From NCBI RefSeq assembly GCF_910596095.1, contig NC_056540.1, forward strand, positions 13,447,001 to 13,511,000: 64,000 nt of DNA, written 5' to 3'. The position numbers were made by a program, and so were the translations under genes. The DNA is from Thunnus maccoyii. Lineage: Eukaryota; Chordata; Actinopteri; Scombriformes; Scombridae. Shown here in pieces: positions 11,049 to 63,387 of the stretch (positions are counted from its first letter, which is position 1; each line of letters starts with the position of its first letter). The notes under the pieces are model-generated. The model worked only from the letters and a program-made list of their open reading frames with translations, searched no databases and had not been told where the DNA came from.

Positions 11049-11054
11049 AAATAA
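11049..11054 (+). terminator. Polyadenylation signal of the dioxygenase gene
   Basis: AATAAA about 400 bp after the dioxygenase stop codon. Confidence 0.5.
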
Positions 11055-13504: not shown

Positions 13505-16500
13505 TCACTGCAGCTGTGAGAGAAGGTGGGTGCAGTCCCCAAGTCTGTCCAGCTCCTCCAAAACTTCAATCAGCCTCTCAACCCTCTCTGACGGAAGCAC
13601 AGCCCCTGCGTTGTTCCTGAACTTCTTCCTCAGACTCTCATTGGTCAGTGGGTTGCGCCAGTGACCGTAGAAGGTGTCACAGCGTCCCCTCAGGATGTCT
13701 CTCCCAACAAGTGTCACCTGGACTTCGGCATACATGTGGTTGAAATTAGCTGGGTTGTCATGGGGATGCTCCACGTGAACATGGCCCAGCAGAGCGAGCA
13801 GGTCAGGGCGCATCATAGCAGCGGGGGTGAAGGACTGCACAGTCACCTCACCATCCAGGAGAGCGCTGCAAGCATTGAACTGAAAAGAGTGACGTGCCTG
13901 GTGCTCAGATTCAGGGAAAGGCCTGTTGATGTATTTTGATTGGGGGACTCTGAGCAGGATCTCCTGAACTTCAGCTGGGGACACAGTGCCATGGTCACCC
14001 CCCACAAGAAGCTTATGGACCGAGGCTGCAGCATCTGCCACCCAGTGCATCCCCAGATGTGCGGGGAAGCGCTTGACACCCATGTCCTGTTCCTCTAGCA
14101 GGAACATATGGCCATTATCATCAGGTGACCCCAAAGGCTGCAGCACGTAGTCTTCATAAAAAGCATTGAAGCCGGCTACCCCTGGGACAGCATCAAGGAC
14201 CAGTGGACTCGCCTCTAGGCCTCGAGAGGCCAGGAGAGCGGCCTCCAGCCCCAAATGTGAGGCATTGCCGATGTGGAGGGGTTTGGACTGAGTGGCAGCA
14301 TTAGCCATTGGGGCTCCAGACAGAGAGGCAGCAATGGCCAAAGCATGACTGCTGCGGGAGTGATCCAAGGACAAGAGGTGAGCACAGGCTGCTGCACTTC
14401 CCATAGTCCCCACCACAGTGGGAGGGTGAAACCTGGTGATGATGAAGACAGATAGTCTTTGGTGAGGGTTGGGTTTACATTTCCATCATTATGGTTATAG
14501 CAGAGCTGCGTACAAACAACTTCTCTTTTACACATGCAGAGACAGCTTATTTCAGGTGTGTTAAAGGAAAAAGAATTTTAGTAATTGAAGTATTTGATAA
14601 ACAAGCAAATAACGTGGTGGGTAATTTGACTTGGTGTAAACACTTGCCAAAAGGAGCCCTCTGTGATATTCTCCTCCACATGGCTAATTGTACGAACACT
14701 ACCCACAGAGCCTCTGCCGTCCTGGAGATGAACATAATAACACGTCTTTCACAGCTCATTGACACCACTAAAAGACTGCATGTTACAATGTGCCAACCTC
14801 CTTGTAACCCCTCCAACAAATCCTCCAAATGAAACGACCAAATACGTCATTTGACCACGCACTCTAGAACGACTCACAGGAGCATTTTCTAATGTGGCGC
14901 CCCTATTATCAGTAATGGCCAGGACAACATGATTTGTCTCTGCTTTCCAAAGTTGTTACAAAACATTCTTAAAAATAATTACATTTTGTGATTTGATAAC
15001 ACTATGGTTACAATCTGGTTAGGTTCAAGCACAAAAACCACTTGGTTATGTTTCAGGAAAGATCATGGTTTGGGTTAAAATGATCACTTTGTTAAGGTTA
15101 GAGATTGTGGTGTATGTTACTAATTCCTTAAAGTTAGGCCACTGTTATTGTTATGGCTACAATAATAACCACAGGGTTATGGTTAGGGGACTGTAGTTAT
15201 GTTTTTTAAGAAACCGTCCCAACTGGTGGTTGGAAATGTGACACTCTTAGAAAAGGCAAACAAGTGGTCTCCTGTGGCAAAGTCCACTGTTGATGCTTCC
15301 ATCCACCCTGCCTCCTCTGAATGAGGATATTTGTAGACACATATACGTCATCTGAACTGCACCATTGCTCTGCGTCATAATTACTACGGCCACTATGGCA
15401 TCTTTCACTCAAACCTAACTATATATCGTTTTTGGGCTACTCACTTTACAACCTACTATAATAAGAAATGTCACATACAGTAAGTATGCTCCAAGATTTT
15501 TTTTTAAGAAATCTGATTTTATTGTTTACCTTTTCTATTAAGTTATTTTTTAATCTATTTATTATTATTACTTTTGCGCTTTGTCCTGTTACAATGTTTA
15601 CTATATCAACAAACTGAAAGTGAAGTCATGACCTTTATGTTATCTTTATTTCATTATGATGCCTATTGTTGTTTTCTGCTATTATATTATTGTCACACAT
15701 ATTGTAAGTGTTGCTTTAAATAAATAAAGTGATGGGAAAAAACAAAACAAAACATTACAAACCACTGTGTCATTCTTCTTGGGAGCTCAGTCTCATAATT
15801 GCCCTTTATGCAAAATATAGAAATAAGCAAACCTGCAAATTGCAAACCCTGCAATGTTGCTAATATACCTTAAAGTACCTGTTTCTGATTTGACTCATGT
15901 TCTGAGGTGCTCACCTCTTGGGGATGTTGTGGGCCTCATTAGAGAATCTCATCAGCCAGCCCTGGATCTCTATGCCGATGTTGAAAGCCAGCAGGAAGTC
16001 AAGGCCACTAGGTTTGCTATTAGCATTCATCATGTCACTGAGCGCTTACACAGCGGGAAGGACGGCTCCTGTGGGATGAGTGGCAGGGTGCCATGTATCA
16101 TCAAAGTCCATGGAGTGAGTCTGTAGCAAAAAGACAACTTTTTAGCAATCTAAGAATGGTATAACTACCATAACACACATAATTATTTTTTAATTTTAAA
16201 AAGTGAGATGATTATCAAGTGATTTTGCATACAACTAGCAAGGGCATGAGGTTGCTGCACTCCATGAAATGAAACTGTAAACATTGCCTTTGCTTAAATA
16301 ATGCACTTTATGTTACAGCTTAACAGGCTTTGGCTACTGAAGGAAAATGTGGGCTGCAGTGGCTTCTTTAGAAACAGGGGCGAAGGAATGTTTGCAGAAA
16401 TTTCTGCAGCAGGGTCATGTGAAGTTAATTCAGGATTCTCATCAGCACCTCTAGTAGCTGGCTGTCCAGACTGTACCATAGTTGAGTGCAAAATAACTGT

Positions 16501-18003
16501 AGTGTGGTTGTGGTACTGGGTTTGGTGCATCTGAAACCGTCCGGTCTACTGGGGACAAAGGTGACACATCTGTTCCACCTGTTTATACTCACCGCCACTC
16601 AGTTGACGAAAGCTGCAAGTGTCAGGGAGAGCCTGGTGCATTATCAGACACTGGGTTACAGAGAGAAAAAAAATGTGTCCAAGTCATATAACTAAATTCA
16701 GTATATTAATAATCAATATTTATTCATCATTTTATCTGTCAACATATGACTACTATTTGTATAAGATCAGGCATTTGCTTTCATATATGCCATTGTTGTA
16801 TCAGAAAAGACCTTTATAAAAAAGTTATTTTCGTCTGTTTTTCTTTCACTCTGACTCACCTGACAGTGCTGCAGAGCCAGTTCAAACACATCAGTAGTGC
16901 TGCCAATCAGACCAACTCCAATGCTGTCTAGCACCATCCTTTTACTACGGTGGAGGACTACAGAGGACAAGTGCTCGGAATTCACTTCACTGATAAACTT
17001 CCCAAAGCTGGCTGTGACTGTGGCATCAGGGGCTGGGTGCTTCAAGACTGCAGGGGGAAAGGACAGCAATGTGTTGCAAAATGCATTGAGGAGAAAGAAG
17101 ACTTGAGGGCAGGAGGAAGTAGAGGAGAAACAGTTTGTATATTTGTCTGAAATGTGATGTGATAGAACTAGTGAATCAACATTTGCTTGGTAGGTATAGA
17201 GTTTGAGAATGTATGTCTCCATTATTCTCACAGTCTGTGTGACAGTGTTTTAATATTCTTTGGATAACAGGATAGAATAGAGTTCAATGTACCATAAGTT
17301 TGACAAAATAAGCAATCGAAGTTGCTACAATGGAGTTGGAAGAAAAAAAATGTTGGTAAGTGAAGATTAAGTAAAGATGAATTACTACCACTACTACTAC
17401 TACTTTACATAACTGTCATTTCAAGGGAATCAATGACCTGTCACCCTCAAGTGCCAAAAGTTAATTTACCTTTCAGTGCAGAGTTATGCAGTCCTCTGAC
17501 AGCTGACATTGGACCAATGATTTTCTGTGGAACACAGGTATAAAGGGTTGAATACACCTAAGCTATGAGCATTACCTCAGATCAGTTATTTGCTGTGGAC
17601 ATGCAGTGATTTTATGGCTTTCTTTGCCAGATACAGATTAAGTTAAATCAGCCTTTTATTGCACATCAGCATCACTATAATAATATTGCTTTGCCGTGTG
17701 CCTCCTTTGAAAGGTCTGTTGCTGGTGAGGTGGTGCTGCACTGTACAACACCTGTTAAGGTGTAATCTGCTCAACTCTTAACAAGAACTTTGTTAAATTC
17801 CTTCCCTAATGTGTACTCACAAAAAAATCCTACACAGTACACACAATTTAATTATATCAGAATTTTGTATTAAATCTTCCACAAGATTGAATTAAGCCAA
17901 ACTTTTTTAATATGACAAAAAAATCTTCCTCACACATCTTTGTTCATCTAACTAAAATAAATAAATAAATATTCTGAGTCTTTACCTGTATCTTGGACAA
18001 CAT
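13505..18003 (-). pseudogene. ACOD1/Irg1-like cis-aconitate decarboxylase pseudogene
   Basis: It has the same six-exon frame as the intact gene at 59965-63387, with identical exon lengths: 18003-17986, 17524-17470, 17047-16860, about 16685-16593, 16120-15915, 14432-13505. Exons 1-3 still encode a presequence (MLSKIQ...) and the start of the enzyme. Exon 4 is badly decayed at its 5' side and has an in-frame TGA (16599-16601). Exon 5 has an in-frame TAA replacing a Leu codon (16048-16046). Exon 6 remains open for over 300 codons with the catalytic-region residues (KRFPAH) present. A full enzyme is therefore not made, although the gene looks deceptively whole at both ends. Exon 6 and part of intron 5 are nearly identical to the intact copy while exons 1-5 are diverged, suggesting recent gene conversion. 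Intron 5 has gained about 1 kb (14.81-15.84 kb). Confidence 0.88.
14810..15840. repeat. Insertion of repetitive DNA in intron 5 of the ACOD1 pseudogene
   Basis: This stretch is absent from the mirrored intron at 61881-62459, which matches directly on both sides of it. It includes a segment (about 15018-15200) rich in GGTTAGG/AAGATCATGGTTTGGG-like sequence, typical of a dispersed fish repeat. No coding capacity was seen. Confidence 0.6.
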
Positions 18004-18335: not shown

Positions 18336-19215
18336 CAAAACTACAATTTGACAACATAGAGACTATGACTATATCAGATGGTTTTCCCGCCAGTTTCTAT
18401 GGTGAGCCAGGAGTTTTAGGCATGTTATCCAATGGGATCAGTGCATTCCTCGTACTTCCACAGAACTTCAGTACAGCACACACTGGCATCGCACCACAAG
18501 GGGTGGAGAACATACTTGCAGGTAAAACCTGTAGTAATTGTTCTAGAAAAATTGAATCAATAATATAAAATTGGCTTATACTAATTTACAACACCTTTTA
18601 CAGGTGTTCATCTCATCCTGATTGGTGGTATATGCCAACTGGTGGCGGGCCTGCTTTCCTTCCAAAAATACGATCATCTGAGTGGCACTGCCTTCATTAG
18701 CTATGCTGCTCTTTGGGGCAGTTATGGTGCCCCTCGGATTTACTTTGGTGCAGTAGCTGAAACTCCCACAACAGAAACTAACGTATCAAGCAACATGCTG
18801 CTGAATGACACCACAGAGGCCCCAGTTTGCTATTTATGTCTGTCCAATGAACAGTCAGCTGTTGCTGGTCTCGTCCCCTATATCCTTCTGTCCTTTCTCT
18901 TCGCCTTTTGCTCTGCCACAGTCAACTACATCATGCCTTTCGTTTTTGGGGCAATCACAGCCACTTTAGTTTTTGAAGCAGTGGTTCTGGTGGCAGGTTC
19001 TTGGGCTCTGGTGGTCTCTGGGATTCTCGAGTTGCTCATTCTGATCTTTGCCATCTATGGTTCAGCTGCACTGACTGATTGACCCTTGGGTCTCTGGAGC
19101 ATCTCTGGAGCTATCATCCAGGTCTATGTCAGCCGGCTACAAGTCACAGGAGCAGGCCGATTCGGATCAGTCATGTCATCCATCTATGTGGCAGTATGGG
19201 CTACCTGGACCAAAC
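18336..19215 (+). pseudogene. Truncated transporter-YrdC pseudogene (mirror of copy 3)
   Basis: Exon 2 (18336-18521, ATG 18365) and the start of the large exon (from 18604) match copy 3 (58517-58332 and 58241 onward) at high identity, including the GGICQLVAGLLSF module motif. After IYGSAAL the frame runs into a stop (TGA, 19079-19081). Sequence then resumes at the equivalent of PWVLISGAIIQ, in another frame. About 0.86 kb of the large exon has been lost across a short CTGACTG-like homology. The downstream membrane and YrdC exons are not found before 30.5 kb. It is divergently arranged against the ACOD1 pseudogene, as copy 3 is with ACOD1. Confidence 0.88.
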
Positions 19216-30540: not shown

Positions 30541-30729
30541 TGGCCAAAATAAAACACAGCTTATGGGATTCTTCATGGTTGTTCAGAGGGCATACTCAAA
30601 GAAAGGAATGGCTAATGATGCCAATCAGTGCGTGATTTTTTCATTTGACAACTTTACAACAACCGCACATTAGATTACAATATATTATTTATAATGCAGC
30701 AGGCAGCATTTTGAAGCAGTGCATTGATA

Positions 30730-33700
30730 CTATGACTCATTTCTAAGGACTGGACTTTGATCAGGGGAATTAGTGCGTGGTGTTGAGCTTCCACTTCCTC
30801 TTCCCGACTCTGCTGCATTGTCCTCTCCTGAACCTCTGTCTATTTGTGTATCTGGCAGATTTATATCATATTCAAAAGCAGGATTCGTCTGCCCTTGTCT
30901 GTGCCGCCTCTGAACCTCCTCAAAGATCTGAAGAACCTTCCAAACAAAAACAACGAGTATTAGTGTGAGCGTACAAAAAATTGAGAGGGTTAACCTAAAA
31001 TGCAAAGAACAGGAGGGGATATTTATATCACCTTGGATTTAGGAATGAGACCAACTCTGAAGAAACCAATGTTTCCTGTTTCAATCTTTGTGCAGTCAAC
31101 CACAGTGGATGCAATGTTCTCTGGCGAGGCTCCATCACATAACACCCCGTCCACCTAACCAAGCAAAATGCACATATTGTTCACAAAAAGTTCAATGAAA
31201 GTATGAACAGCAGTGCCTCTTGGATTTAATAAAACTGAATTATTGTGTTTACCTTGTTGCCCAGCTTGGCATAAACTTGGTTGTGGTGAGTTGTGTCTGC
31301 CTCGCCTGTAGGGTTGGCTGAGGTCACAGCAATGGGCCCCACCTTCAACAAAAACAGGTCATTGTATTCACTATGGGGTTTACTGCCGAAGGTGCGCAGT
31401 TATTCATGTCTACAGCCCTTACCAGGTTAATGAGGTGTGTGGCCACAGTGCAGTCTGGGTTCCTGATAGCGATGCTTTGTGGAGTCCCTATGTGTTTGGC
31501 AGCTTCTCCTAAACCAAAGGTGTCCATCCATGGGCCTGTGTGAGACAAGAAACCCATATGACCCTTCATGCACCATCAGGCAACCAGGCACAAACATGCA
31601 AACATCCACAAACACACACCTACCTCTGGGTATGACCATGCTGATGGAGGAGGGCCACGCAGCTTCCATGAAGTCCAGGAGCAGAGGGCTCAGCAGATGT
31701 CGGACCGGCTCCAGCTGCTTGATGGAAGAGATCCACAGGGACATGGGTCGGTCCTGCGCCTGCTTCTTCACCCTGAAGTCAAACACAAAAATTAGAGAAT
31801 AATGAGACGGAACTGATAAACGAATGCAGACCAGGGCACACTCACAAAAAAAAGACACTTACTTGTAAGCTTTGACAACTGCATCTGGCCTGTTGCAAGC
31901 TGCCACCAGCACATAGACAGTGTCTGTAGGCATTCCACATATGCCACCATTTTTCATGATTTCTGCAGAGGAGAAGAGAGGAGAAGAAAAATCAAGTATG
32001 CAAACAACTGTATTTTAATATTCACATCAATTTCTTTTATGCATTCTTACCTGCAATCTGTTGGACAGATGAAGCCTTGCGGGCCGGCACATGAGGACAG
32101 ATATCTGCCCCTCCTCCAACCCCACTCAGCTTCACTAAAGGTTTTCCTAAGGGGATCTGGGGGGTCTGGAAGGTGCTGTTGAAAATGTGAGCCAAAAAAC
32201 AATAAAAACTAACAAGGCCAAAGATGATGGTGACTCCTATGTCATAACCATAAGGCAGTGCACCTACTGCATCCAGCAGGAAGCTAATGAGGATGAGCTG
32301 GAAGGTGAATGCATAGACAAACCAGGCAACATTTAGAAACAGTGCCGCCACTGTCACTAAACAGTTAAACAGCATGAAGCAGATGATCCCGACGGCCACA
32401 TTAAAGCCTCTGGTATCACCGTACAGACCTCCGTATCGTGTCAACCCCCACACTGTCCACATCACCCCGTAGACTATAAAAACTGTGCTCTCAAAGGTTT
32501 TACCCCGAGAGAAAGCAACCGAGCCGCAGAGCAGCTGAAGTGCCCCACCAGCCACCACCACCCAGGGCAGAACCAGCACAGACAGAGGATTTCTGTCACC
32601 AATTGTGGCTGTGACAGCAAAAGCAGCCAGTACACTGCAGGCGTAGCCTAACACTTCTGCGTCTGCATATTTGGAGTAGCCCAGGTGAGGTGCATGGAGC
32701 TCTTTATCATGGGCTCTGAGAGTGAGACCCCGCGTCCTGGTTACTAAAGCCTTGAAATAGCCCTGCCCTGTGGGAATCATTTTAGTGGAGACCATATTGA
32801 ATGCGGTAATTAAAAGCATGATGGCAGAGGCTACAAATATAGCTGCCTGTACTCCCTGAGTGCCTCCTTGGAAGAAGCCTCGAGGCTGGGCTGCAATGGC
32901 GATACAATACGCTGAAAAGAACAACTGGTAGAACCCCTCCAGCAAACTCTTCTGACAACTAAACAGAGCCAGGATGAAGAAAAGCACAGAGAAGACGACA
33001 GGGAAGGGAACCGGGGAGAAAGGCTCCACTTTGTAGAATGATAGGAGAGCACTGTAGCCCTCTGCAAATCTCAGGAGAGCAGTGAAGCCGTAAAAAGTAG
33101 CAGCTAGTGTGTCCATGGCTCGGTAGAAGAGGACACACATGCCAAGCTGGAAGACTCCAGCTGTCCACAGCCAGGGGACGTGACCGACAAAGAGCTGAGG
33201 GACCACACCTAACAGAGGACAGGCTAACACAGAGGCTGAAAGTAAGTTCATCACCAGACCCACTGACACTGCATCACTACACTCCTGCTTCTGCCCTGTT
33301 TTCAGCTCATCTTTTCTCTTCAGGCCAGTTCCTGGAGGTTCCACTTTACCATGAGTGACGATGGACAGCAGACGTCCAAAACCAAAATAAACACCCACCA
33401 GACAGACAAGGAGGTAGTTAGCAGCTGTGGCAGACTGGCCGAAACCTGAAGCTGACAGACCGGCAATTTGGTGGGCACAAGCTAAGCTAATGCAGACAGC
33501 TATGAGACACAGAACTACTTTCTTTACCACAAGTGCCACATTGCCTATGAGGAGCAGGGCTAATGTAAACGCTGCCAGGCCGGGGATCAAAGAGGATCTT
33601 AGCTCTGTGGGCTTTAGCACCCCCTGCCCTGCCAGGATGTACACCAGGCCTGAACCACACCACAGAGCAGAGATAGTCAGACACACAGAGGAAAACAGCT

Positions 33701-34828
33701 GGGCGTGGGACAAACTGCGACGGATACCTGAGAGGTAAACAGTTAACAGGGAGCAAATTAAGTTTTTTCATGCATAAATACAAATCTCTAATTAATAAAT
33801 TTTTAAAATTAGTGATGACTAAACTCAAAACAAACCTGCATAAGCTAAGAGGGCAGCGATGATGAGGAGCAGAATCCCCAGTGCAGTATGGGGGATGAAG
33901 TCTTTTTCAGGAGAGCTGGCATAGTTGTTCACCAAAAGCAGGAGAGAACCTAAAGGTCAGAACAAGTTTTTTTTAGACATCTTGATAAGAATTAAGCAGA
34001 TGATTTTGTTTCCTCCTACAGTAAGCAGAATTAAGTGAAATGTTTCCCAGTTTAGATTTTCTCACGTTTCCATATTTTATGCAGTTAATCATGAACTTAA
34101 TACTAGTTCTGCCACATTTCTAAATTTGTATTTTGTAGTTGGCAAGAGTATGGATTTCCTAATGCTGTGAGTGGACAGCAGAGGTTTTAGTATTATTCAA
34201 CATATTTAACACACAAGGACTACCAACTGACAAGAATAAACTATAACCATCATAACAAAATATTAACTTATTTCTTCTCAAAACATTATTAGTTATGTAA
34301 TTAATGTCATCTGAAAAAAAGAAACAGATTATTATTATTTCAGGAAAGTTACAGTTAATTTGCATGTTGTGTAAAACAAAAATATATACTTTTCTTTGAC
34401 ATAAATCGCAGCTTTTATTCCAAGTACAATCTTTCCACAAAGCCTTCAAAATAACTGACAGAGAGCAAAGTCATTAGGAACAAACTGATTGACAAAGTCA
34501 TAAAAAATTGGAATAATAGAATAAAACACCTGTGAGATATGACAAAAAGTACACCTCTGGATTGAGGTTAAACTTACACAACATGTAACTTTTACCAACT
34601 TAAGATATAACTTTACTTTTATCTTACATTTCCGCATGATATTAGTTTTAGAGAAGGCAACTAAAATGATATTGTGTTTTGTAGCCCTGAGAAGGACTGT
34701 TAGTCACAGCCCAACTGTTGCAGTGGGGAAAAATGAACGAAAAAACAAACTGACGCATGTAAATACAACTTACCGCCAGAGATGCCCAGTATGCCCACGG
34801 ACACATGCAGTGAGCTGAGTTGAGCCAT
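30730..34828 (-). CDS. Transporter-YrdC fusion, copy 1 (three SatP-like modules + YrdC domain), 875 aa
   Basis: Nine coding exons: 34828-34774, 33949-33836, 33727-32051, 31962-31863, 31772-31624, 31535-31423, 31342-31253, 31154-31032, 30936-30730. It has the same architecture as copy 2 (43463-47395), and the large exon differs from it at only two residues (about 366 Ala/Val and 418 Tyr/His). The N-terminal part is polytopic membrane protein in three SatP-like modules. The clearest is module 3: LPWVVVAGGALQLLCGSVAF, then an RGKTFESTVFIVYG block. The YrdC part keeps PTDTVY and TSANP but has Gln where the KxR motif needs Arg. Exon 9 ends early compared with copy 2, because an 8-bp insertion-like difference brings in TAG. 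It is head-to-head with ES1 copy 1. Probably an organic-acid transporter-like protein; substrate unknown. Confidence 0.82.
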
Positions 34829-40426: not shown

Positions 40427-41600
40427 TTAGTGACTTAAGCCAAGTGTCTCTCTCACCATGGCACCTACTCCATCAAAAACTTTATGAATGGGAGCATTGC
40501 ACATGAAGGCACTGGTGGTGACCAGCTTATTTTTGACATCAACGTGAGCTTGCTCCACATCTGTATTCACATGTTTGCAGCCCATCGTCTTTACAGCCCC
40601 GGCTGTCTGGGCATATGGCCACCTGAAGAGGACAAGAGAGAGAATGTTAGAACCTTAGGTTGCACATTTCAGTATCCACTGACATCTGATGATGAAAAAT
40701 AATCATGTGTTCACGCACTTTTCACACTCTTTGTCCTGTCCCAAAGTGAGCTCGCAGCCAGGCAGGACTTTGGCAGCGAGGACGGGGGAGATGCAGCACA
40801 TGCCCAGCGGCTTTCCGGCTTTGTGGAAAGCCTTGATGATCTTCTCCAGTTGTGGCTGGACGGTGCAGTCCTTATTCTTCACTGCCCAGTCACTCAGGTT
40901 CTTGGCCACACCAAAACCCCCTAAACAAGAACACATTCAAGTAGCATGTAGCATATCTCAAAAGTGAAGGTGAAAAAAGAAATATAAAAGTGCTAAATGT
41001 AAAATATTATACCCTATGTACAACTGACTCAGTCTCACCTGGGATGATGGCAGCATCAAATGCTGAAACATCCAACTTGGCCAGATCAGTCACGTCACCC
41101 CGGGCAATACGGGCACTTTCTTGCAGGACGTTTCTTTTCTCCTCTGTAGGTTTCCCCTCACAGTGGTTTACAACATGCATCTGAGCTACATTTGGAGCAA
41201 ACATCTTCACCTGAGGAGCATCAGGAGGGAAATAAACAACAAATAAATAAACATTACACATCAGATGGATGGGCCAACAGCCTCTGTAGCTCTGTAGTAT
41301 TGTAATGTGTCAGTCTTTCCAAAGCTGTTAACCGTATCTCAGTGGGTCAGGGTTACAACAGTTCTTTTAATGAAAAATGGAAAGAAAAGTAGAGCAAAGT
41401 GTGAACTGGAGTAAATCCTGTCTGCCATGACATAAGACAACTATACTGTAACATGGTCACTTGGTTTTTTTGTCCTGCAGACGTGGCCTTACTTCTGCTC
41501 CGGCACGACTCAGATGGACGAGGACAGCGGAGGCCTCGTGGACCTCTGTGCCATCATAGACTCCACAGCCTGAGAGAATAACTGCAACACGCTTCACCAT
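40427..41600 (-). CDS. ES1/GATD3-like DJ-1/PfpI-superfamily protein, copy 2, 225 aa
   Basis: Mirror of copy 1 with exons 41600-41493, 41210-41039, 40920-40719 and 40622-40427. I detect only isolated base differences from copy 1 across exons and introns, for example an Asn codon AAC in copy 1 versus AAT here. The encoded proteins appear identical or nearly so, with the same GMCCISP elbow and no presequence. The upstream noncoding exon and first intron start alike and then diverge, so expression may differ from copy 1. It is divergent from transporter-YrdC copy 2, with the TATA box at 42181-42186. Confidence 0.9.
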
Positions 41601-43462: not shown

Positions 43463-46400
43463 ATGGCACAACTACAGTCGCTGCATATGTCCGTGGGCAT
43501 GTTGGGCATCTCTGCCGGTAAGCTGTGATTTAATGTGTCAATTACAAACATTCATAAGCCTACTTTGTGCAGTTATTAAAAGTTATTATTACATATTAGT
43601 ATGAATTTAAAATAAATGTATGCTAAAACAGTAAAGTATCATCCTATTTAGGCTTAAAACTTCAAAAAACGTGTTAGTTTTGAAACCTAAAAAACTGAAA
43701 CCCTCTGGTCTTATTTTTAACTTTTATTCTTTATTTATTATTTACATGTCATGGTAATATATGCTGAAAATAAAGTGACATTAAGTTTTGAGCTGCAGAA
43801 ACTAAAACTTTAAAACTTAAGCAGCCTACACTGATATCAGACACCAACTCCATTATTAAAACAAAACATACTGCTGCAGATATTTAATTATTAGGTTCAT
43901 AATTACCTGCATGGCATTAAGGACATTAAAACAGGGACATTTCTCAGTCACTTTCAAGCAGCCACTTGCTGTTGCCATTCGGTAAAATCATATTTTGATC
44001 AAAATGTTAAGATACTGTTTGTGACATGAGTTTGTTTTGGTCAGTTGCCAGTAGGTGGCTCTCATTAGTGAGTTTTGTTTTGACCTTTAGGTTCCCTCCT
44101 GCTTTTGGTGAACAACTATGCCAACTCTCCTGAAAAAGGCTTCATCCCCTATACGGCACTGGGGATTCTGCTCCTCATCATCGCTGCCCTCTTAGCTTAT
44201 GCAGGTTTGTTTTGAGTTTGGTCATCACTAATTTTAAATATTTGTCAATTTTTATTAATTAGAGATTTGTATTTATGCATGAAAAAACTTAATTTGCTCC
44301 CTGTTAACTGTTTACCTCTCAGGTATCCGTCGCAGTTTGTCCCACGCCCAGCTGTTTTCCTCTGTGTGTCTGACTATCTCTGCTCTGTGGTGTGGTTCAG
44401 GCCTGGTGTACATCCTGGCAGGGCAGGGGGTGCTAAAGCCCACAGAGCTAAGATCCTCTTTGATCCCCGGCCTGGCAGCGTTTACATTAGCCCTGCTCCT
44501 CATAGGCAATGTGGCACTCGTGGTAAAGAAAGTAGTTCTGTGTCTCATAGCTGTCTGCATTAGCTTAGCTTGTGCCCACCAAATTGCCGGTCTGTCAGCT
44601 TCAGGTTTCGGCCAGTCTGCCACAGCTGCTAACTACCTCCTTGTCTGTCTGGTGGGTGTTTACTTTGGTTTTGGACGTCTGCTGTCCATCGTCACTCATG
44701 GTAAAGTGGAACCTCCAGGAACTGGCCTGAAGAGAAAAGATGAGCTGAAAACAGGGCAGAAGCAGGAGTGTAGTGATGCAGTGTCAGTGGGTCTGGTGAT
44801 GAACTTACTGTCGGCCTCTGTGTTAGCCTGTCCTCTGTTAGGTGTGGTCCCTCAGCTCTTTGTCGGTCACGTCCCCTGGCTGTGGACAGCTGGAGTCTTC
44901 CAGCTTGGCATGTGTGTCCTCTTCTACCGAGCCATGGACACACTAGCTGCTACTTTTTACGGCTTCACTGCTCTCCTGAGATTTGCAGAGGGCTACAGTG
45001 CTCTCCTATCATTCTACAAAGTGGAGCCTTTCTCCCCGGTTCCCTTCCCTGTCGTCTTCTCTGTGCTTTTCTTCATCCTGGCTCTGTTTAGTTGTCAGAA
45101 GAGTTTGCTGGAGGGGTTCTACCAGTTGTTCTTTTCAGCGTATTGTATTGCCATTGCAGCCCAGCCTCGAGGCTTCTTCCAAGGAGGCACTCAGGGAGTA
45201 CAGGCAGCTATATTTGTAGCCTCTGCCATCATGCTTTTAATTACCGTATTCAATATGGTCTCCACTAAAATGATTCCCACAGGGCAGGGCTATTTCAAGG
45301 CTTTAGTAACCAGGACGCGGGGTCTCACTCTCAGAGCCCATGATAAAGAGCTCCATGCACCTCACCTGGGCTACTCCAAATATGCGGACGCAGAAGTGTT
45401 AGGCCACGCCTGCAGTGTACTGGCTGCTTTTGCTGTCACAGCCACAATTGGTGACAGAAATCCTCTGTCTGTGCTGGTACTGCCCTGGGTGGTGGTGGCT
45501 GGTGGGGCACTTCAGCTGCTCTGCGGCTCGGTTGCTTTCTCTCGGGGTAAAACCTTTGAGAGCACAGTTTTTATAGTCTACGGGGTGATGTGGACAGTGT
45601 GGGGGTTGACACGATACGGAGGTCTGTACGGTGATACCAGAGGCTTTAATGTGGCCGTCGGGATCATCTGCTTCATGCTGTTTAACTGTTTAGTGACAGT
45701 GGCGGCACTGTTTCTAAATGTTGCCTGGTTTGTCTATGCATTCACCTTCCAACTCATCCTCATTAGCTTCCTGCTGGATGCAGTAGGTGCACTGCCTTAT
45801 GGTTATGACATAGGAGTCACCATCATCTTTGGCCTTGTTAGTTTTTATTGTTTTTTGGCTCACATTTTCAACAGCACCTTCCAGACCCCCCAGATCCCCT
45901 TAGGAAAACCTTTAGTGAAGCTGAGTGGGGTTGGAGGAGGGGCAGATATCTGTCCTCATGTGCCGGCCCGCAAGGCTTCATCTGTCCAACAGATTGCAGG
46001 TAAGAATGCATAAAAGAAATTGATGTGAATATTAAAATACAGTTGTTTGCATACTTGATTTTTCTTCTCCTCTCTTCTCCTCTGCAGAAATCATGAAAAA
46101 TGGTGGCATATGTGGAATGCCTACAGACACCGTCTATGTGCTGGTGGCAGCTTGCAACAGGCCAGATGCAGTTGTCAAAGCTTACAAGTGAGTCTCTTTT
46201 TTTTGTGAGTGTGCCCTGGTCTGCATTCATTCATCAGTTCCGTCTCATTATTCTCTAATTTTTGTGTTTGACTTCAGGGTGAAGAAGCAGGCGCAGGACC
46301 GACCCATGTCCCTGTGGATCTCTTCCATCAAGCAGCTGGAGCCGGTCCGACATCTGCTGAGCCCTCTGCTCCTGGACTTCATGGAGGCTGCGTGGCCCTC

Positions 46401-47395
46401 CTCCATCAGCATGGTCATACCCAGAGGTAGGTGTGTGTTTGTGGATGTTTGCATGTTTGTGCCTGGTTGCCTGATGGTGCATGAAGGGTCATATGGGTTT
46501 CTTGTCTCACACAGGCCCATGGATGGACACCTTTGGTTTAGGAGAAGCTGCCAAACACATAGGGACTCCACAAAGCATCGCTATCAGGAACCCAGACTGC
46601 ACTGTGGCCACACACCTCATTAACCTGGTAAGGGCTGTAGACATGAATAACTGCGCACCTTCGGCAGTAAACCCCATAGTGAATACAATGACCTGTTTTT
46701 GTTGAAGGTGGGGCCCATCGCTGTGACCTCAGCCAACCCTACAGGCGAGGCAGACACAACTCACCACAACCAAGTTTACGCCAAGCTGGGCAACAAGGTA
46801 AACACAATAATTCAGTTTTATTAAATCCAAGAGGCACTGCTGTTCATACTTTCAGTGAACTTTTTGTGAACAATATGTGCATTTTGCTTGGTTAGGTGGA
46901 CGGGGTGTTATGTGATGGAGCCTCGCCAGAGAACATTGCATCCACTGTGGTTGACTGCACAAAGATTGAAACAGGAAACATTGGTTTCTTCAGAGTTGGT
47001 CTCATTCCTAAATCCAAGGTGATATAAATATCCCCTCCTGTTCTTTGCATTTTAGGTTAACCCTCTCAATTTTTTTTACGCTCATACTAATACTCGCTGT
47101 TTTTGTTTGGAAGGTTCTTCAGATCTTTGAGGAGGTTCAGAGGCGGCACAGACAAGGGCAGACGAATCCTGCTTTTATATATGATATAAATCTGCCAGAT
47201 ACACAAAGAGACAGAGGTTCAGAAGAGGACAATGCAGCATCAGAATCAGAGTCAGAAAGAAGAAATGGAAACTCGACACCGTGCACTGATTCCCCTGATC
47301 AAAGTCCAGTTCTTAGAAATGAGTCAATGCATCGCTTCAACATGCTGCCTGCTGCATCAGACATTCACAAAGAGCTGTCAAATGAAACCTCTTAA
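43463..47395 (+). CDS. Transporter-YrdC fusion, copy 2 (three SatP-like modules + YrdC domain), 900 aa
   Basis: Nine exons in phase: 43463-43517, 44091-44204, 44323-45999, 46088-46187, 46278-46426, 46515-46627, 46708-46797, 46896-47018, 47114-47395. Residues 1-570 are many hydrophobic spans in three repeated blocks starting near 1, 207 and 412. The third carries GGALQLLCGSVAFSRGKTF, close to the SatP block GGIAQIFAGLLEYKKGNTFG, and later AFTFQLILISFLLDAVG. Residues about 611-800 form a YrdC/Sua5-like domain: GGICGMPTDTVY, then VKKQAQDRP, then TSANPTGE. The KRSN tetrad of TC-AMP synthases reads K,Q,S,N here. A polar, Ser/Glu-rich tail follows. The YrdC fold normally binds ATP and makes threonylcarbamoyl- or carbamoyl-adenylate. 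Transport substrate and YrdC activity are inferences. Confidence 0.83.
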
Positions 47396-54898: not shown

Positions 54899-57800
54899 CT
54901 AACATTCACCCATCATGTTTCTCACTCTGTCAAAGATCTGTCTGACTTTTACTGCAGGGACACAGCCTTCTCTCACAATGGTGATTGTCCCTGTGGAAAG
55001 AGGAAGACAGGTAAGAATTAGAAAGTGTCTGTTAAAGCAAAAACAGAGACAATCTGCTGGAAAAGATTCTGCATTGTACCTTCATCAATCCTCAGGCAGT
55101 TGACTATAGTGGAAGCAACAACTTCATTAGAATCCCCATCGCACAGAACCCCTTGGATCTTCTCTCCTAGTCGGCTGTGACAAAACAGATGGTCAGAATA
55201 TATTGTAATAAACTGATAAAGCACACATTTGTTACTCTGACACACTGAGATGAATCTTCTGTAAAAAGCAGTTTTCAAATCTCATGTCAATACAAAGTGT
55301 GTCAGTTAACAGGAGACATGTATGAGGACTTTGGTACAGTAGAGTTGTCAGAAAAGACTCTTACTTGACGACCATGCTGTGGTGGGTGCTGTCTGGCTCT
55401 CCACTGGGATTGGCTGAGGTAATGGCAAGGGGTCCAGTGATGTCACAAAGGTGGCCAGTCACAGTGTGGTCAGGGACACGGATCATGATGCTGTTGTTGG
55501 TACCAACACGGTCATAAGCTGGTCCCACTCCTACACAAGATGAATTAAAACATTTAAAACATGAGGTGACTGCCATCTTTTTATGCTAAGATAATGAAGT
55601 TAGAAGAAGAACAAAATTGCTGCTGTTTTGGCTAGTTTACCCAGTTTGAACAGCCAGTCTCCTTTGCTCACTATGCAGCTGATGCCTCCAGGATACACGT
55701 TCCTCATAAACTCCCAGAGCAGAGGACTGAAGGGAGGTTTGGCTGCCACCAGCTGCTCCACACTAGAAATGCAAATACAGATGGGCTTCTCCGCTGGTCT
55801 GTCCTACGGGTTATAAACAACAGGTTAATGACTTTCACATCATGCACAAAATGGTGACATTGGATTTAATTCACATGACACTTTTCATTCTTACTTTAAT
55901 GTTGTAGATTTTCTCTATTGCCTGAGGGTTCTTGCAGGATGCAGCCAGGGCATACACAGTGTCTGTGGGAATGCCACATACTCCGCCTTTCTCCAGCAGG
56001 CCAGCGATCTCCAGAAGACCACTGGTGAGTCGAGAGTTAGCCTCAGGACAGTGTAGCTCTGGAGCAGTCTCCTGCTTCATTTTCTCCTAAGACAGGCCAC
56101 AGAGGGAGGGAAAATACAAAAATATTTAGTTTACAGCGGATCACAATAGAATGAAAGAGGAAATACAATAAGAGTCTTTTGATTGGTTACCTTTAAGAAG
56201 GGAGGGCCCATAGGTAACACTCTCTGTGAGAAGATGCAGTTCAACATTGACGCCAGAGCTCCATATATACAAATTATAGAAAGCAGCACAAGCATGGCCA
56301 CTATGAAGAAAAAGTTGTCACAATGTTTTAATTCCAATGTGGATGTTTTTTAAAAATGTGCTTTGAATGAATCTTTGTCTATACTTACCTTCTAGCTGGT
56401 ATGGCAGTCGCTGAAGGGTGGAAAGCAGGAAACAGACTAGTACAACCTCCATGACTGCTGTTAGAAACAGCAAAACCAGGTTCCTATAGGCAGCTGACAT
56501 AAACAATGGAAAGGATTACAAATGGCTAAAAAAAAAAAACCAACATAAAATGATTATTCTGTTAAAAATAATATGATAAACCTTACCAATCACCATGAGG
56601 AAAGCATTAATGACCAGGAGAGCAATGGCTCCTGCTGTAAAACCGTAAGCAGCCTCTGTAGAAAACTGAAGCAGTTTACCTAGAAATTAAAAACTTGTGA
56701 TTAGAATTTTGTGTAAATCTGTCAGAAAGAAATCTGCATTGAACCACATGTTTGTACTCACATACCTGCAAACCTAAACCAGGTCCAGGTGGCCCATACT
56801 ACCACATAGATTGATGAGATTACTGATCCGAATCTGCCTGCTCCTGCGACTTGCAGCCGGCTGACATAGGCCTGGATGATAGCTCCAGAGATGAGGACCC
56901 AAGGGACAGTCAGATGAAGGAAGGAGGGGTTTGTGCTGGAAACAGCAGCCTGAATAGCCGAGAAAGCTGCAACCCCATTTGACAGGTAGAACAGGGCGTC
57001 TGAAGTGTGGTCCATTTGGAGCAACACCTCCTGGTCTCCCTGTTCAGATCTTCCACACGTCAAAGCCTTCTTCAGTTGGTGAGTGGAGACGGGCTGTGGT
57101 CCTACAGGGATGAGAGACTTCTCTGCTATAGTGTTGATGAGACGTGAGAAGGTACCATACAGGGAGGTTGCGCAGAAGAGAGAGCAAGCTACACCAAAGA
57201 AAATGTAGTATCCCTGGAGAGGGATCTGGGGGACTGTGGAGACTGTCAGCAGGACGAAGAGCATGTTGTGGATCAGCTCCAGGACATCGATGTTCAGGCT
57301 TCCACAACAGAGCACCAAGGCTGCCACCACAAAGAACCAGTCTCCCACCATCATTTCCCTCCCTGAGGTCACTTCACTGTCCTTCACAATCAGAGCAGAT
57401 GCCACAAACTCATCCCAAGCCTTGATCAGCCAATATGTGGCATGAAGACCAAACTTTGTAGTGTGGTAGCAATCTTGGCGCAAATGGGCATAGTAGCTGG
57501 AGAACAGCTGGGCGACTGAGACGATTGACACCCATGCAGCACCCAAGCCAAAGGACTTCATGTACCCAAAGCTGTAGAAGGCGAAGATGAAGGGTGCAAC
57601 AGTGTCACTGAAGAAACCCAATGCCATTGGCTCTGCATACTTTGTGTTTTTCTTCTTCTCTTGGCCAGTGCTCTGGGTGCTTGCTGAGTTGGTGGTACCA
57701 AGCAACAGAACATTGAAGAGGGGTGTCCCGAAGCCTTTGAGGGCCAGACGCTGAGTCAGACCTTTGACAAGCAGTGCAGCTGAACCGTAGATGGCGAAGA

Positions 57801-58488
57801 TCAGAATGAGCAACTCGAGAATCCCAGAGACCACCAGAGCCCAAGAACCTGCCATCAGAACCACTGCTTCAAAAACTAAAGTGGCTGTGATTGCCCCAAA
57901 AACAAAAGGCATGATGTAGTTGACTGTGGCAGAGCAAAAGGCGAGGAGAAAGGACAGAAGGATATAGGGGACGAGACCAGCAACAGCTGACTCTTTAATG
58001 GACAGACATAAATAGCAAACTGGGGTCTCTGTGGTGTCATTCAGCAGCATGTTGCTTGATACGTTAGTTTCTGTTGTGGGAGTTTCAGCTACTGCACCAA
58101 AGTAAATCCGAGTGGCACCATAACTGCCCCAAAGAGCAGCATAGCCAATGAAGGCAGTGCCACTCAGATGATCGTATTTTCGGAAGGAAAGCAGGCCAGC
58201 CAACAGTTGGCATATACCACCAATCAGGATGAGATGAACACCTGAATAAAACATAAAATTAAAATTACTAAGACAAGTTTACACTTTTTTATTATATTAT
58301 ATTATTAAAGCAGATTATCTACAAGTTTTACCTGCAAGTATGTTCTCCACCCCTTGCGGTGCGATGCCAGTGTGTGCTGTACTGAAGTTCTGTAGAAGTA
58401 CAAGGAATGCACTGATCCCATTGGATAACATGCCTAAAACTCCCGGCTCGCCATAGAAACTGGCCGGAAAGCCATCTAATGTAGTCAT
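54899..58488 (-). CDS. Transporter-YrdC fusion, copy 3 (three SatP-like modules + YrdC domain), 882 aa
   Basis: Ten coding exons: 58488-58332, 58241-56766, 56679-56587, 56493-56389, 56300-56191, 56086-55895, 55803-55641, 55530-55365, 55174-55080, 54990-54899. A noncoding exon ends at 59522. I chose the ATG at 58488 because the upstream exon has no in-frame ATG and has a stop. Residues 14-645 hold three SatP-like modules starting near 14, 255 and 466. Module 1 has EPGVLGML, GGICQLLAGLLSFRK and SGTAFIGYAALW; compare SatP NPAPLGLMG, GGIAQIFAGLLEYKK, LTAFTSYGSFW. Module 2 has EPMALGFFSDTVAPF; module 3 has PWVLISGAIIQ. The YrdC domain (about 665-850) keeps the full KRSN tetrad: Lys-Asp-Arg in YNIKDRPAEKP, and Ser/Asn in TSANPSGE. 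It is head-to-head with ACOD1, the likely partner for its role. Confidence 0.85.
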
Positions 58489-59757
58489 AGTCTCTATGTT
58501 GTCAAAAAGCACTTTTGCTGAAAAAAAAAATCAACAAAGGATGTAATTTAACAAATGACACAAACAACTTATCTATGAATATATATGCTTGGTACATTTT
58601 CCATTATGGATAAATTGCAATACCAAATACATATATCACCAAAAAGACTAATTCAGAATCATCTTGATTGATTTATTACAGCACATTTACCAAGGTAAAA
58701 AAGTATTATAAGTATCACTATGTTGCAAAAATATGAATGCAAGTTAAGTGGACAGAGACATGTTGTTTGTGGTTGGAAAGAACAATTTGGTTTTCTTAGT
58801 GGCTAGTGAATGATAAATACTCTAATCAGTGCATTTTACAAAAACACCATAGAACAAATCTGAAGCTAAATTAAAAACAAAGTAGATATGATAACACATT
58901 TAGGAATGTAAATGTGAACCACAGATAAAAAAAATTAGACTGCTGGTCCTATGAACTAAATTAGATGTTATTAATGGATATATGGATATATATTCAAGTG
59001 AAAGTCAGAAAAGTTAAAAAGTTGGAAAACTCTCCATCAGGCTCGTTTTTGTCTTATCTCCTGAAACACCCCCATAAACCTGAGAGTCTCTGGCCCTGCC
59101 CACTCATAAGTAGGGTAACTCATTGTTGTAGTGTAACAGCAGCAAGAGACACAGAAGAGTAGCTATATTCAACGTTCCTGCTCTAATGACTATAGTTAAT
59201 ATAAGTTACTATAAGTTAATATATAGTTAATATAGTTACTATAAGTTGGTATCGCATAAGTAAACATTTTATCCATAACTGACATATTGATATATGCACA
59301 AAAGACAAGCGCAGCATACTAAGGTACTGTCAGATACACTTTTTAAAGAGTTGGGATTTTGGTATTCTCTAATAATTTTATTCTGCAATAGAACATCTTT
59401 CCTGTAACTGCAATTATTTAGACAATGTTTAAAAAAACTTGTTATTTTTCACTGTTCATTATGTTGCATTTTGAAGCCTACATACAAAACACAATCAATA
59501 ACACTGGAAATAAGGTCTTACCTGGTGAAGCTCTTCGGAGAAATGAAGTGTGGAGTTGTTCTGGAGTGTGGATGAAAGGTCATAAATAAGACTCTGTGTG
59601 TAGGAGGAGTTCATGAAACTTCCCCCACACTCACCTACAATCTGCAACGTGAGAGATGACATCATTGACTTACTTACAATAATAAAACTTCACTATTTCT
59701 TCCTCCTTTTTTGAGGGTGGGGATGTTTGTTGTGACGACGATGTAAGCCAACTACAT

Positions 59758-59766
59758 GGAAATTCC
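59758..59766. promoter_or_regulatory. kB-like site in the shared promoter
   Basis: GGAAATTCC is made of two inverted GGAA half-sites and lies about 90 bp upstream of the ACOD1 TATA box. Chance occurrence is possible. Confidence 0.35.
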
Positions 59767-59853
59767 TCCTTTGAGGAAACTCATTAGGGTTTTGTTATGG
59801 ATAAGCCTGCCCTTCCTTGTTTCTTCCCAGTCAATATCAATAGCCATTGTAAC

Positions 59854-59860
59854 TATATAA
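59854..59860 (+). promoter_or_regulatory. TATA box of ACOD1
   Basis: TATATAA about 105 bp before the ATG. It is conserved in the mirrored pseudogene (18091-18097). Confidence 0.65.
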
Positions 59861-59964
59861 GGCAGGTACAACTCAAACCCAACATCAGTATCCATCTGCT
59901 GACTGCAATCCTGCTGTATCAAAGAGAGAGAAAAGAGAAAAACAACTTGAGAAAAACTGCAGCC

Positions 59965-62900
59965 ATGATCTCCACACTACAGGTAAAGATTCAGAATACT
60001 TTTGCAGGCATTTTTACTTAGATTAATATGAATCTACATCACTTTGTATGCCTTACTAAGTAATTTTATGGCATATTTATTCAATCTAGTGAAAGATCTA
60101 ATGTTAAATTCTACAATCACACTATAGCATTTTTTTTGTATACATGGTAGTGGAGAACGTAGCTCTTGTTAAATGTTGAGCAGATTACACATACACACCT
60201 GTTACAACACCACCTCACCTGTACAATAGCTCTTTCAACAGAGGCACACAGAATGAGCAATATTCATGACAGTGATGCCAATGTATACTAAAATTTAATT
60301 AGATCCGTGTCTGACAAGGAAAATATCTGAGCGCACCAACAACCTGAAATAGATTTGAGACTCTCTGTACTCTGTGTCCTGCAGAAAACTATTAGACCAA
60401 TGAGCACTGTGAGAGGACTGCATAAATCTGCAGTGGAAGGTAAGCTGTTACATACATAAATTCTACTTATTCAGACAAAGAAACTAATAATTTCTCCTTT
60501 ACTAACTCCCGACTTCTTTCCTTCTCTTTCTCGCTATTTTTGCTAATTTTTCCCAATACAGTCTTTAACTACCCAGCCCATGAGGACACAGTCACAGCCA
60601 GCTTTGGGAGGTTCATCAGTGAAGTAAAGCCTCAGCACTTGTCCCCTGTAGTCCTCCACCGCAGTAAAAGGATGGTGCTGGACAGCGTTGGAGTTGGTCT
60701 GATTGGCAGCACGACAGATGTGTTTGAACTGGCCCTGCAGCACTGCCAGGTGAGCCGAGGGGAGAGAAATCATTAGAAGGAATAACTTTTTATTAAGGTC
60801 TTATCCGATATAAGTAGAGACAGATGAAAGCTAATACCTGACCTTTTACAAACAGTAGTCATAAGTCAGTGCAAAGGTTGTGTGTGGACAGATGTGATAA
60901 AGGGAAAAAAAACACTGGTTATTATTAGAATATATCTAGTCATATAACTTGGGAACAGAGAGGGGATTTTTATGTTTAATGAAATATGACGAAGAAACTT
61001 ATTCAGCTTTCATCAACTGAAGAGTGATGAGCCAGAGTTTAATTTAATTTAAATTTAAAGTAAAGCTCACAGTATATGTCTGTGTGTGTATGATGACACA
61101 ATATCTGACTAAAACATTGCAATAAAAATATCCTTGAAACAATTCATTATGTTAACCTGTCTGCTTCTCTTCCCCTCAGAACATGTACGCCCCTGATGAC
61201 ATCAGCTCTGTGTACGGACGCAAGGGCACCAGGCTCTCCCCGACACTGGCAGCTTTTGTTAATGGAGTGGCAGTGAGTATAAATAGGTGGAACAGATGTG
61301 TCACTATTGTCCCATGTGTGCTAGACAATTTCGGATGCACTAATCCATAAACCCATTACCGCAACCAAACTACAGCTACTGAACATGGAACAGTCTAGAG
61401 AGCCAACCACAGGAGGAATGAATGGGAATTACCCTTCTGCAGAAATTTCCAACATTATGTGTGCAAACACTAGTTGGCCTCCGTTCCCCAAATAAGTCAC
61501 CAGGGTGTCGAGCCCATTTCTGCAGCCAGCCTTTGCCCTCTATGATTCAACCCTGTCATAGCAATTAAAGAGACTCAGATTTTCCTATTAAATACATCGG
61601 CCACAGTGAGGATTAGGGACTTGATAGCTATTGTTCCATTTGATTTTTTTTTAAATGTGTCCTTTTTGCCACAGACTCACTCCATGGACTTTGATGATAC
61701 ATGGCACCCTGCCACTCATCCCTCAGGAGCAGTCCTTCCTGCTGTGTTAGCTCTCAGTGACATGATGCCTGCTAATAGCAAACCTAGTGGCCTGGACTTC
61801 CTGCTGGCTTTCAATGTCGGCATAGAGATCCAGGGCCGGCTGATGAGGTTCTCTAATGAGGCCCACAACATCCCCAAGAGGTGAGCACCTCAGAACATGA
61901 GTCATATCAGAAATAGGTACTTTAAGTTATATTAGCAACATTGTGGGGTTTGTACTGGACTTGGTCTCCGTAAGTGATCATTTCATGGATATAAAGCCTG
62001 TCCTTATTTCTATATTTTGTAAGGAGTATCCACATGAGTCTAAAGCCCATCCATATTTGACTCTGCTGATCTCTGTAGTGTGGTTTACAAGGAGGTCGGT
62101 GCAGTGTAACATGCAGTCTTTTAGTGGTGTCAATGAGCTGTGAAAGACGTGTTATTATGTTCATCTCCGGGACAGCAGAGGCTCTGTGGGTAGTGTTCGT
62201 ACAATTAGCCATGTGGAGGAGAATATCACAGAGGGCTCCTTTTGGCAAGTGTTTACACCAAGTCAAATTACCCACCACGTTATTTGCTTGTTTATCAAAT
62301 ACTTCAATTACTAAAATTCTTTTTCCTTTAACACACCTGAAATAAGCTGTCTCTGCATGTGTAAAAGAGAAGTTGTTTGTACGCAGCTCTGCTATAACCA
62401 TAGTGATGGAAATGTAAACCCAACCCTCACTAAAGACTATCTGTCTTCATCATCACCAGGTTTCACCCTCCCACTGTGGTGGGGACTATGGGAAGTGCAG
62501 CAGCCTGTGCTCACCTCTTGTCCTTGGATCACTCCCGCAGCAGTCATGCTTTGGCCATTGCTGCCTCTCTGTCTGGAGCCCCAATGGCTAATGCTGCCAC
62601 TCAGTCCAAACCCCTCCACATCGGTAATGCCTCACGTTTGGGGCTGGAGGCCGCTCTCCTGGCCTCTCGAGGCCTAGAGGCGAGTCCACTGGTCCTTGAT
62701 GCTGTCCCAGGCGTAGCCGGCTTCAATGCTTTTTATGAAGACTACGTGCCGCAGCCTTTGGGGTCACCTGATGATAATGGCCATATGTTCCTGTTAGAGG
62801 AACAGGACATGGGTTTCAAGCGCTTCCCCGCACATCTGGGGATGCACTGGGTGGCAGATGCTGCAGCCTCGGTCCATAAGCTTCTTGTGGGGGGTGACCA

Positions 62901-63387
62901 TGGCACTGTGTCCCCAGCTGAAGTTCAGGAGATCCTGCTCAGAGTCCCCCAATCAAAATACATCAACAGGCCTTTCCCTGAATCTGAGCACCAGGCACGT
63001 CACTCTTTTCAGTTCAATGCTTGCAGCGCTCTCCTGGATGGCGAGGTGACTGTGCAGTCCTTCACCCCCGCTGCTATGATGCGCCCTGACCTGCTAGCTC
63101 TGCTGGGCCGTGTTCTTGTGGAGCATCCCCACGACAACCCAGCTAATTTCAACCGCATGTATGCCGAAGTCCAGGTGACACTTGTTGGGGGAGACATCCT
63201 GAGGGGACGCTGTGACACCTTCTACGGTCACTGGCGCAACCCACTGACCAATGAGAGTCTGAGGAAGAAGTTCAGGAACAACGCAGGGGCCGTGCTTCCG
63301 TCAGAGAGGGTTGAGAGGCTGATTGAAGTTTTGGAGGAGCTGGACAGACTTGGGGACTGCACCCACCTTCTCTCACAGCTGCAGTGA
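59965..63387 (+). CDS. acod1 (irg1-like): ACOD1/Irg1-like cis-aconitate decarboxylase, 495 aa
   Basis: Six exons: 59965-59982, 60385-60439, 60562-60749, 61180-61272, 61675-61880, 62460-63387. The enzyme decarboxylates cis-aconitate to itaconate, in mitochondria of activated macrophages in other vertebrates. All active-site positions described for mammalian ACOD1 are present: Asp123 and His133 (MDFDDTWHPATH), His189 (RFHPPTVVGT), Lys237 (TQSKPLHIG), Lys307 and His312 (KRFPAH). These correspond to D93, H103, H159, K207, K272 and H277. Length is close to human (481 aa). The extra N-terminus, MISTLQKTIRPMSTVRGLHK, is basic and free of acids, as expected of a mitochondrial presequence. The family is MmgE/PrpD. 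It shares its promoter interval with transporter-YrdC copy 3. AATAAA at 63800-63805. Confidence 0.96.

Follow-up and report, generated by a model that had tools for sequence, protein, structure and literature searches.

An Ato-type gene with a YrdC domain lies head-to-head with an acod1 paralog in Thunnus maccoyii and may encode a carboxylate channel

Vertebrate Ato proteins, described in June 2026 without a known function (PMC13316224, iScience), appear in passages of that paper as chains of about 900 amino acids (aa), in which a triplicated Gpr1/Fun34/YaaH region precedes a C-terminal Sua5/YciO/YrdC domain. The same passages record members of the AceTr family in Bilateria, with two vertebrate clades that cover all major lineages except mammals, and report three domains by AlphaFold along with a proposed ring of two chains and six domains. 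The main text of the paper makes no mention of acod1, irg1, itaconate, synteny or zebrafish. Here we describe a gene of this type, hereafter gene A, that lies head-to-head with an acod1 gene in Thunnus maccoyii, within a 64,000-nucleotide stretch of DNA (the window; positions 13447001-13511000 of contig NC_056540.1, hereafter C8, of a 782-Mb genome). The protein class is already published; new is its genomic context beside acod1, a pairing for which we found no report in the open-licence literature, judged mostly from listings. Adjacency to acod1, together with co-expression in zebrafish, yields a concrete and testable hypothesis for these proteins.

Fungi offer a precedent for such an arrangement. 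Passages of PMC4720413 and PMC7419537 describe itaconate clusters of Aspergillus terreus (cadA) and Ustilago maydis (mtt1, itp1), in which a synthesis gene is likewise clustered with carboxylate transporter genes; CadA of A. terreus is assigned there to the PrpD family, as is ACOD1. As transporters, these passages name a mitochondrial tricarboxylate carrier and MFS exporters rather than AceTr proteins, and YrdC goes unmentioned in them. Were gene A to carry itaconate, the locus would be a vertebrate counterpart of these fungal synthesis-and-transport clusters. In mammalian macrophages, MCT1 and MCT4 are described as carrying itaconate across the plasma and vacuole membranes (PMC12658120); they would thus share the role proposed for gene A but belong to an unrelated family.

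The pair and the sequence between its members comprise the following features.

54899..58488, minus strand: gene A, vertebrate Ato type (three AceTr domains and YrdC), 10 coding exons, 882 aa, PF01184 and PF01300
58488-58332, 58241-56766, 56679-56587, 56493-56389 and 56300-56191, minus strand: coding exons 1-5 of gene A
56086-55895, 55803-55641, 55530-55365, 55174-55080 and 54990-54899, minus strand: coding exons 6-10 of gene A
57712..58488, minus strand: AceTr domain 1 of gene A, aa 1-229, two exons (PF01184 29.1 bits; SatP 5zug, phmmer E 0.029)
57053..57655, minus strand: AceTr domain 2 of gene A, about aa 248-448 (A2+B2 profile to SatP 5zug, E 0.0012)
56191..57022, minus strand: AceTr domain 3 of gene A, about aa 459-646, four exons (A1+A3+B3 profile to SatP; A3 against B3 in hhalign)
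54899..56086, minus strand: YrdC/Sua5 domain of gene A, aa 647-882, exons 6-10 (PF01300, TIGR00057)
59520..59964, no strand: presumed shared divergent promoter, with a candidate donor of the gene A 5′ untranslated region (5′UTR) at 59520, GGAAATTCC at 59758 and TATAWAW at 59854
59965..63387, plus strand: acod1, second paralog, probably of irg1l type, 495 aa, 6 coding exons (PF03972/PF19305; 7br9)

The reading frame of gene A stays open throughout its 882 aa, and its introns are GT-AG in 9 of 9 cases. The N-terminal 229 aa scored 29.1 bits against PF01184 (E 9.5e-7; cut-off 25), whereas the entire chain reached 20.3 bits and exon 3 alone 8.9 bits, both under the cut-off; the NCBIfam AceTr models scored far under their cut-offs against domain 1. 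Single domains A2, A3 and B2 gave no match to PF01184 (A1 to A3 and B1 to B3 denote the AceTr domains of gene A and of gene B, a more distant relative described below). Profiles built from several domains reached further. Among solved structures, the A1+A3+B3 profile had SatP as its top match (E 1.7e-5; best single stretch 0.0036), and the A2+B2 profile ranked SatP 5zug at the top of 177,635 solved sequences (E 0.0012, residues 5-189 of 190). When the domains were compared as single sequences with hhalign, A3-B3 reached a probability of 97.7% and A1-B3 80%, the remaining 13 of 15 pairs staying at or below 13%; with two-member profiles, domain 2 against domains 1/3 reached 93.7%. Hydropathy yielded 16 peaks, compared with the 18 expected for six transmembrane helices per domain. 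A gene A with only one AceTr domain was ruled out by the SatP matches of the two profiles. An earlier note on this DNA, made from the letters, had read the N-terminal part of the neighbour as a single SatP-like transporter: the AceTr kinship is borne out by domain 1 and by the profiles, but there are three domains, not one, and PF01184 exceeds its cut-off in A1 and B3, not in the whole chain of gene A.

The C-terminal 236 aa scored 129.2 bits against PF01300 (cut-off 25.1) and 125.3 bits against TIGR00057, the L-threonylcarbamoyladenylate synthase equivalog (cut-off 123.2), with E 3.6e-20 against a solved Sua5-type enzyme. Aligned to solved Sua5-type enzymes, gene A carries KDR and TSAN at the KxR and S-A-N motifs, which we take to be active-site motifs of threonylcarbamoyl-AMP synthases. 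The YrdC fusion that the earlier note had proposed is thereby upheld, in one open chain of 10 exons. Together, these matches support the prediction that gene A encodes three tandem AceTr (GPR1/FUN34/YaaH, SatP-like) units followed by a threonylcarbamoyl-AMP synthase domain. By sequence profiles, this architecture is that of the vertebrate Ato proteins, in the same order of three AceTr domains and YrdC as in the passages of PMC13316224, to which our analysis adds the observations on linkage, expression and gate residues. By hidden Markov model and profile, gene A shares its family with SatP of Escherichia coli and Citrobacter koseri (5zug, 5ys3) and with fungal Ato1. These carry one six-helix domain per chain, no YrdC and a canonical NPAPLGL, whereas gene A has three domains and a polar residue at the Phe position discussed next. 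The Sua5/TsaC/YRDC synthases share with gene A the PF01300 and TIGR00057 cut-offs that it passes; its YrdC domain differs in being fused behind some 18 presumed transmembrane helices, and a separate YrdC match lies on contig C10. A single-protein scan, which finds close relatives only, returned no relatives of the main gene A exon in viral contigs.

The family signature NPAPLGL reads EPGVLGM in domain 1 of gene A (3/7 identical) and is more diverged in the other domains. In SatP, the Phe three residues past NPAPLGL is presumably the F of the FLY constriction. By eye, and depending on the alignment, this position is N, D and N in A1-A3 and N and S in B2 and B3, while a Tyr that precedes a Trp by four residues is retained in A1, A3 and B3 and ambiguous in A2 and B2 (B1 was not readable for the gate Phe). 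The canonical FLY constriction was therefore not matched, the Phe position being polar in all five readable AceTr domains of A and B. Passages of PMC13316224 describe F, L and Y as lining the gate of the AceTr family constriction and report that Leu219Ala in the constriction of yeast Ato1 makes growth on succinate possible. A more polar gate would suit a dicarboxylate such as itaconate, without proving itaconate.

The product of the acod1 gene in the window matched both the N and C domains of the MmgE/PrpD family (PF03972/PF19305) and the solved cis-aconitate decarboxylase 7br9 (E 1.2e-161). In the alignment to 7br9 it keeps all six residues that we take to be catalytic in ACOD1, namely D93, T97, H103, H159, K207 and H277, and it is probably an enzyme that makes itaconate. 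About 30 extra N-terminal residues, basic-rich and acidic-poor by eye, precede the aligned part; the product is probably mitochondrial, given this presequence-like N-terminus, a prediction that depends on the chosen start exon, which comprises only 18 bases and was picked by eye.

A second acod1 copy lies at C11:23543520-23546104 and is 55% identical to the window copy over exon 6. The 50 kb around it hold CLN5 (PF15014, E 1e-84), a BTB_2 gene resembling KCTD12 (named by eye, with an H1_KCTD8_12_16 match below cut-off) and an F-box gene resembling FBXL3 (named by eye). This gene order fits the mammalian ACOD1 locus, which we take to be flanked by CLN5 and KCTD12. Over exon 6, the best score against ACOD1 structures was 368 bits for the C11 copy and 333 bits for the window copy. 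Because both the CLN5-linked position and the higher exon 6 score belong to the C11 copy, we rejected the window gene as the CLN5-linked ACOD1 ortholog and regard it as a second paralog, presumably the irg1l of zebrafish papers, a name we assign by inference. The ACOD1 identity given in the earlier note thus holds for the cis-aconitate decarboxylase family but not for the CLN5-linked gene. The distinction tells which of the two fish acod1 copies to study. Separately, an exon of ES1/SCRP-27A type (GATD3/ElbB-like) occurs near both loci, at window positions 36445-36744 (plus strand) and 41010-41309 (minus strand) and at 1525-1833 of the C11 stretch (L020), with E 2e-11 and 4e-12 against solved proteins of the family; its presence near both suggests that the C8 and C11 acod1 regions are related blocks.

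Gene A and acod1 are divergent, with start codons 1.48 kb apart, as the earlier note's head-to-head arrangement had it. The candidate 5′UTR donor at 59520 would bring the two transcription units closer, leaving 445 bp that we presume to be one promoter serving both genes. Within these 445 bp, GGAAATTCC occurs once (3 in the window, 0.52 expected), a STAT-type palindrome once at 59534-59542 (0.27 expected), GAGGAAS once (0.06 expected) and TATAWAW once (0.70 expected, no excess over shuffles), and neither GGRNNNYYCC nor GGGRNWYYC was found. Many patterns were tried, and we give these counts little weight.

Expression evidence comes from zebrafish. The si:ch211-153b23 genes (.3,.4 and.5) are probably relatives of genes A and B, tied to them by the YrdC-domain description of.4 in one paper and by their shared clone-type name. 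In Table 2 of PMC8877790, which covers differentially expressed genes over 18 conditions, the correlation with irg1l was 0.90 for.4, 0.88 for.3 and 0.86 for.5, placing them 2nd, 4th and 5th of 64 genes; the gene in sixth place reached 0.62, against a median of -0.07 over the first 54 genes. Furthermore, irg1l,.4 and.5 were among the five most strongly upregulated genes at one dose of perfluorooctanesulfonic acid (PFOS) in passages of PMC9228135, and irg1l,.3 and.5 were three of the five hub genes of one module in passages of PMC11140123. In one zebrafish expression list, 283 of 337 such genes rose; for the three genes, a figure gives the direction. These data support co-regulation of acod1-type and Ato-type genes in zebrafish, orthology there being assigned solely by gene name, and so bear out the co-expression envisaged in the earlier note. 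For the zebrafish map position of irg1l, no paper was found in the open-licence literature.

We put at about 35% the probability that the locus is an inflammation-inducible pair made up of the decarboxylase and a co-induced Ato ring that channels carboxylates, itaconate being the lead substrate. Gene A and the irg1l-type decarboxylase would be induced together from one divergent promoter, and the decarboxylase would make itaconate. Each gene A chain would contribute three six-helix AceTr units, and two chains would form a six-unit ring as in SatP, following the published hypothesis. Across a cell membrane, the ring would move itaconate, or the related C4/C5 acids and acetate found in inflamed cells. 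The YrdC domain would probably face the cytosol and would make threonylcarbamoyl-AMP for tRNA t6A from bicarbonate, and the channel and YrdC halves may be coupled. A far-reaching version appears unlikely to us: that fish, and perhaps other non-mammalian vertebrates, possess a dedicated itaconate channel, a polar-gated tandem AceTr ring encoded head-to-head and co-induced with an irg1l-type decarboxylase, whose YrdC domain ties carboxylate/bicarbonate flux to tRNA t6A in infection, and which was lost in mammals, which use monocarboxylate transporters.

Several observations weigh against an itaconate channel, which as a reading of gene A is only partly supported, itaconate being a plausible substrate. 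The NPAPLGL signature of gene A is degenerate. The zebrafish genes are linked to A and B by gene names only. The best correlate of irg1l in PMC8877790 was sult5a1 (0.91), and si:ch211-207n23.2 tied with.4 (0.90); sult5a1 is also among the Shigella top 50 (PMC6980646). Since both genes track irg1l equally well, the pattern is that of an inflammatory programme, not of a unique pair. Passages of PMC9228135 list irg1l in the top five at F2 under low perfluorooctanoic acid (PFOA) without any 153b23 gene, whereas 153b23.3 was listed without irg1l in PMC11489432, as reduced and not significant; among the six studies naming si:ch211-153b23 genes, irg1l was also named in four and absent from two. In the same genome, no gene A, gene B or AceTr sequence was found in the 50 kb around the CLN5-linked acod1, which leaves the general "vertebrate" module of the earlier note unsupported in that form. 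Finally, because MCT1 and MCT4 carry itaconate, mammalian macrophages need no dedicated itaconate channel.

The alternative that survives best, though we hold it to be somewhat improbable, is that gene A is an inflammatory carboxylate channel whose substrate would be acetate, lactate or bicarbonate and not itaconate, its location beside acod1 reflecting shared induction. The substrates tabulated for SatP in passages of PMC7419537 are acetate, lactate and succinate, which again counts against itaconate, and CaAto1 is described in passages of PMC13316224 as carrying primarily acetate. The YrdC half also passes the threonylcarbamoyladenylate synthase cut-off. The reaction of that enzyme uses bicarbonate. 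Against an ordinary acetate permease speak the degenerate NPAPLGL and the polar gate residue. Passages of PMC13316224 show that fungal Atos vary at NPAPLGL too, so the degeneracy makes a canonical acetate permease less likely and leaves the AceTr kinship unaffected.

The history of the cluster bears on whether the pairing is fortuitous. Beyond what the earlier note had described, the window holds two copies of gene B, which sit, inverted relative to each other, between two outer acod1/gene A pairs, the left of which is decayed.

44091..47395 (also delimited as 44075-47357), plus strand: gene B, right copy, second Ato-like gene (PF01184 30.4 bits for domain 3; tblastn to gene A including YrdC exons)
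30694..33965, minus strand: gene B, left copy (97.8% nucleotide identity to the right copy over 3291 columns)
13508..17527, minus strand: left acod1 copy, decayed, with in-frame stops
18365..19211, plus strand: left gene A remnant, three pieces matching gene A

In the left acod1, exon 5 is interrupted by an in-frame stop, and a second stop falls within 15 residues that weakly match exon 4; the remaining pieces of the left gene A match residues 1-209 and 503-539. Because both are present, the outer pair predates the local duplication; an older linkage of acod1 and gene A, as the earlier note had claimed, is thus supported. The inverted duplication spans window positions 13461-63431 with its centre at about 38.5-39 kb, in patches that are 98% and 66-79% identical, a pattern that patchy gene conversion or parts of unequal age could produce. 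An assembly artefact as the sole origin of the pairs was rejected, the left acod1 and gene A being decayed and diverged (patches 66 to 98% identical); the near-identical gene B copies could be partly an assembly matter.

A genome-wide search with gene A returned at least 22 matches, 21 in the window and one, YrdC-only, on C10, presumably the ordinary YRDC gene. PF01184 returned at least two matches, both of them the gene B copies, and PF01300 at least four, split evenly between C8 and C10. All of these are minimum numbers, as PF01184 missed gene A itself and PF01300 missed gene B. All AceTr-type matches found in the genome lie within the window, in two diverged genes beside acod1.

These results bear on the possibility that two unrelated genes share one bidirectional inflammatory promoter and no common metabolite. 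Adjacency and co-induction do not by themselves establish shared chemistry, and the correlation of irg1l with the 153b23 genes is no closer than that with sult5a1 and 207n23.2. Such a bystander arrangement is nevertheless unlikely in our estimate, as the linkage is older than the local inverted duplication and the cluster contains two diverged Ato-like genes, with no further one found in the genome by these lower-bound counts.

Gene B is about 25% identical to gene A over the AceTr part and retains YrdC exons; its model leaves out the first exon or exons, and the other exon ends were set by eye. Domain 3 of gene B scored 30.4 bits against PF01184 (cut-off 25). Over the 559 codons of the main exon, the left and right copies differ by 8 synonymous and 2 nonsynonymous changes, compatible with constraint or recent conversion. 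A scan with the main gene B exon as a single protein, again limited to close relatives, found none in bacterial and archaeal genome contigs. A and B presumably represent the two published vertebrate Ato clades. The KxR position in gene B reads KKQ (by eye, across a splice junction), and the protein ends in an acidic, serine-rich tail; its YrdC domain may be catalytically impaired. Since gene A keeps KxR and SAN where gene B reads KKQ, gene A is the likelier active YrdC enzyme of the two.

That the AceTr part no longer transports and serves the YrdC enzyme as a membrane anchor or sensor, in t6A control during infection, would fit the degenerate AceTr motifs of the readable domains and the far higher score of the YrdC half of gene A against its family, but is quite improbable, given that AceTr units are still recognisable in both genes and that gene B has an AceTr domain over the cut-off while its KxR position reads KKQ.

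Two further observations concern the left end of the window. A coiled-coil exon at 5476-5799 shows a weak, below-cut-off match to NEMO CC2-LZ and perhaps belongs to a TNIP-like NF-kB regulator. Exons at 9327-12503 resemble by eye a phytanoyl-CoA dioxygenase-type gene, the tested pieces having no Pfam match; the Shigella list of PMC6980646 includes a gene of this type in its top 50.

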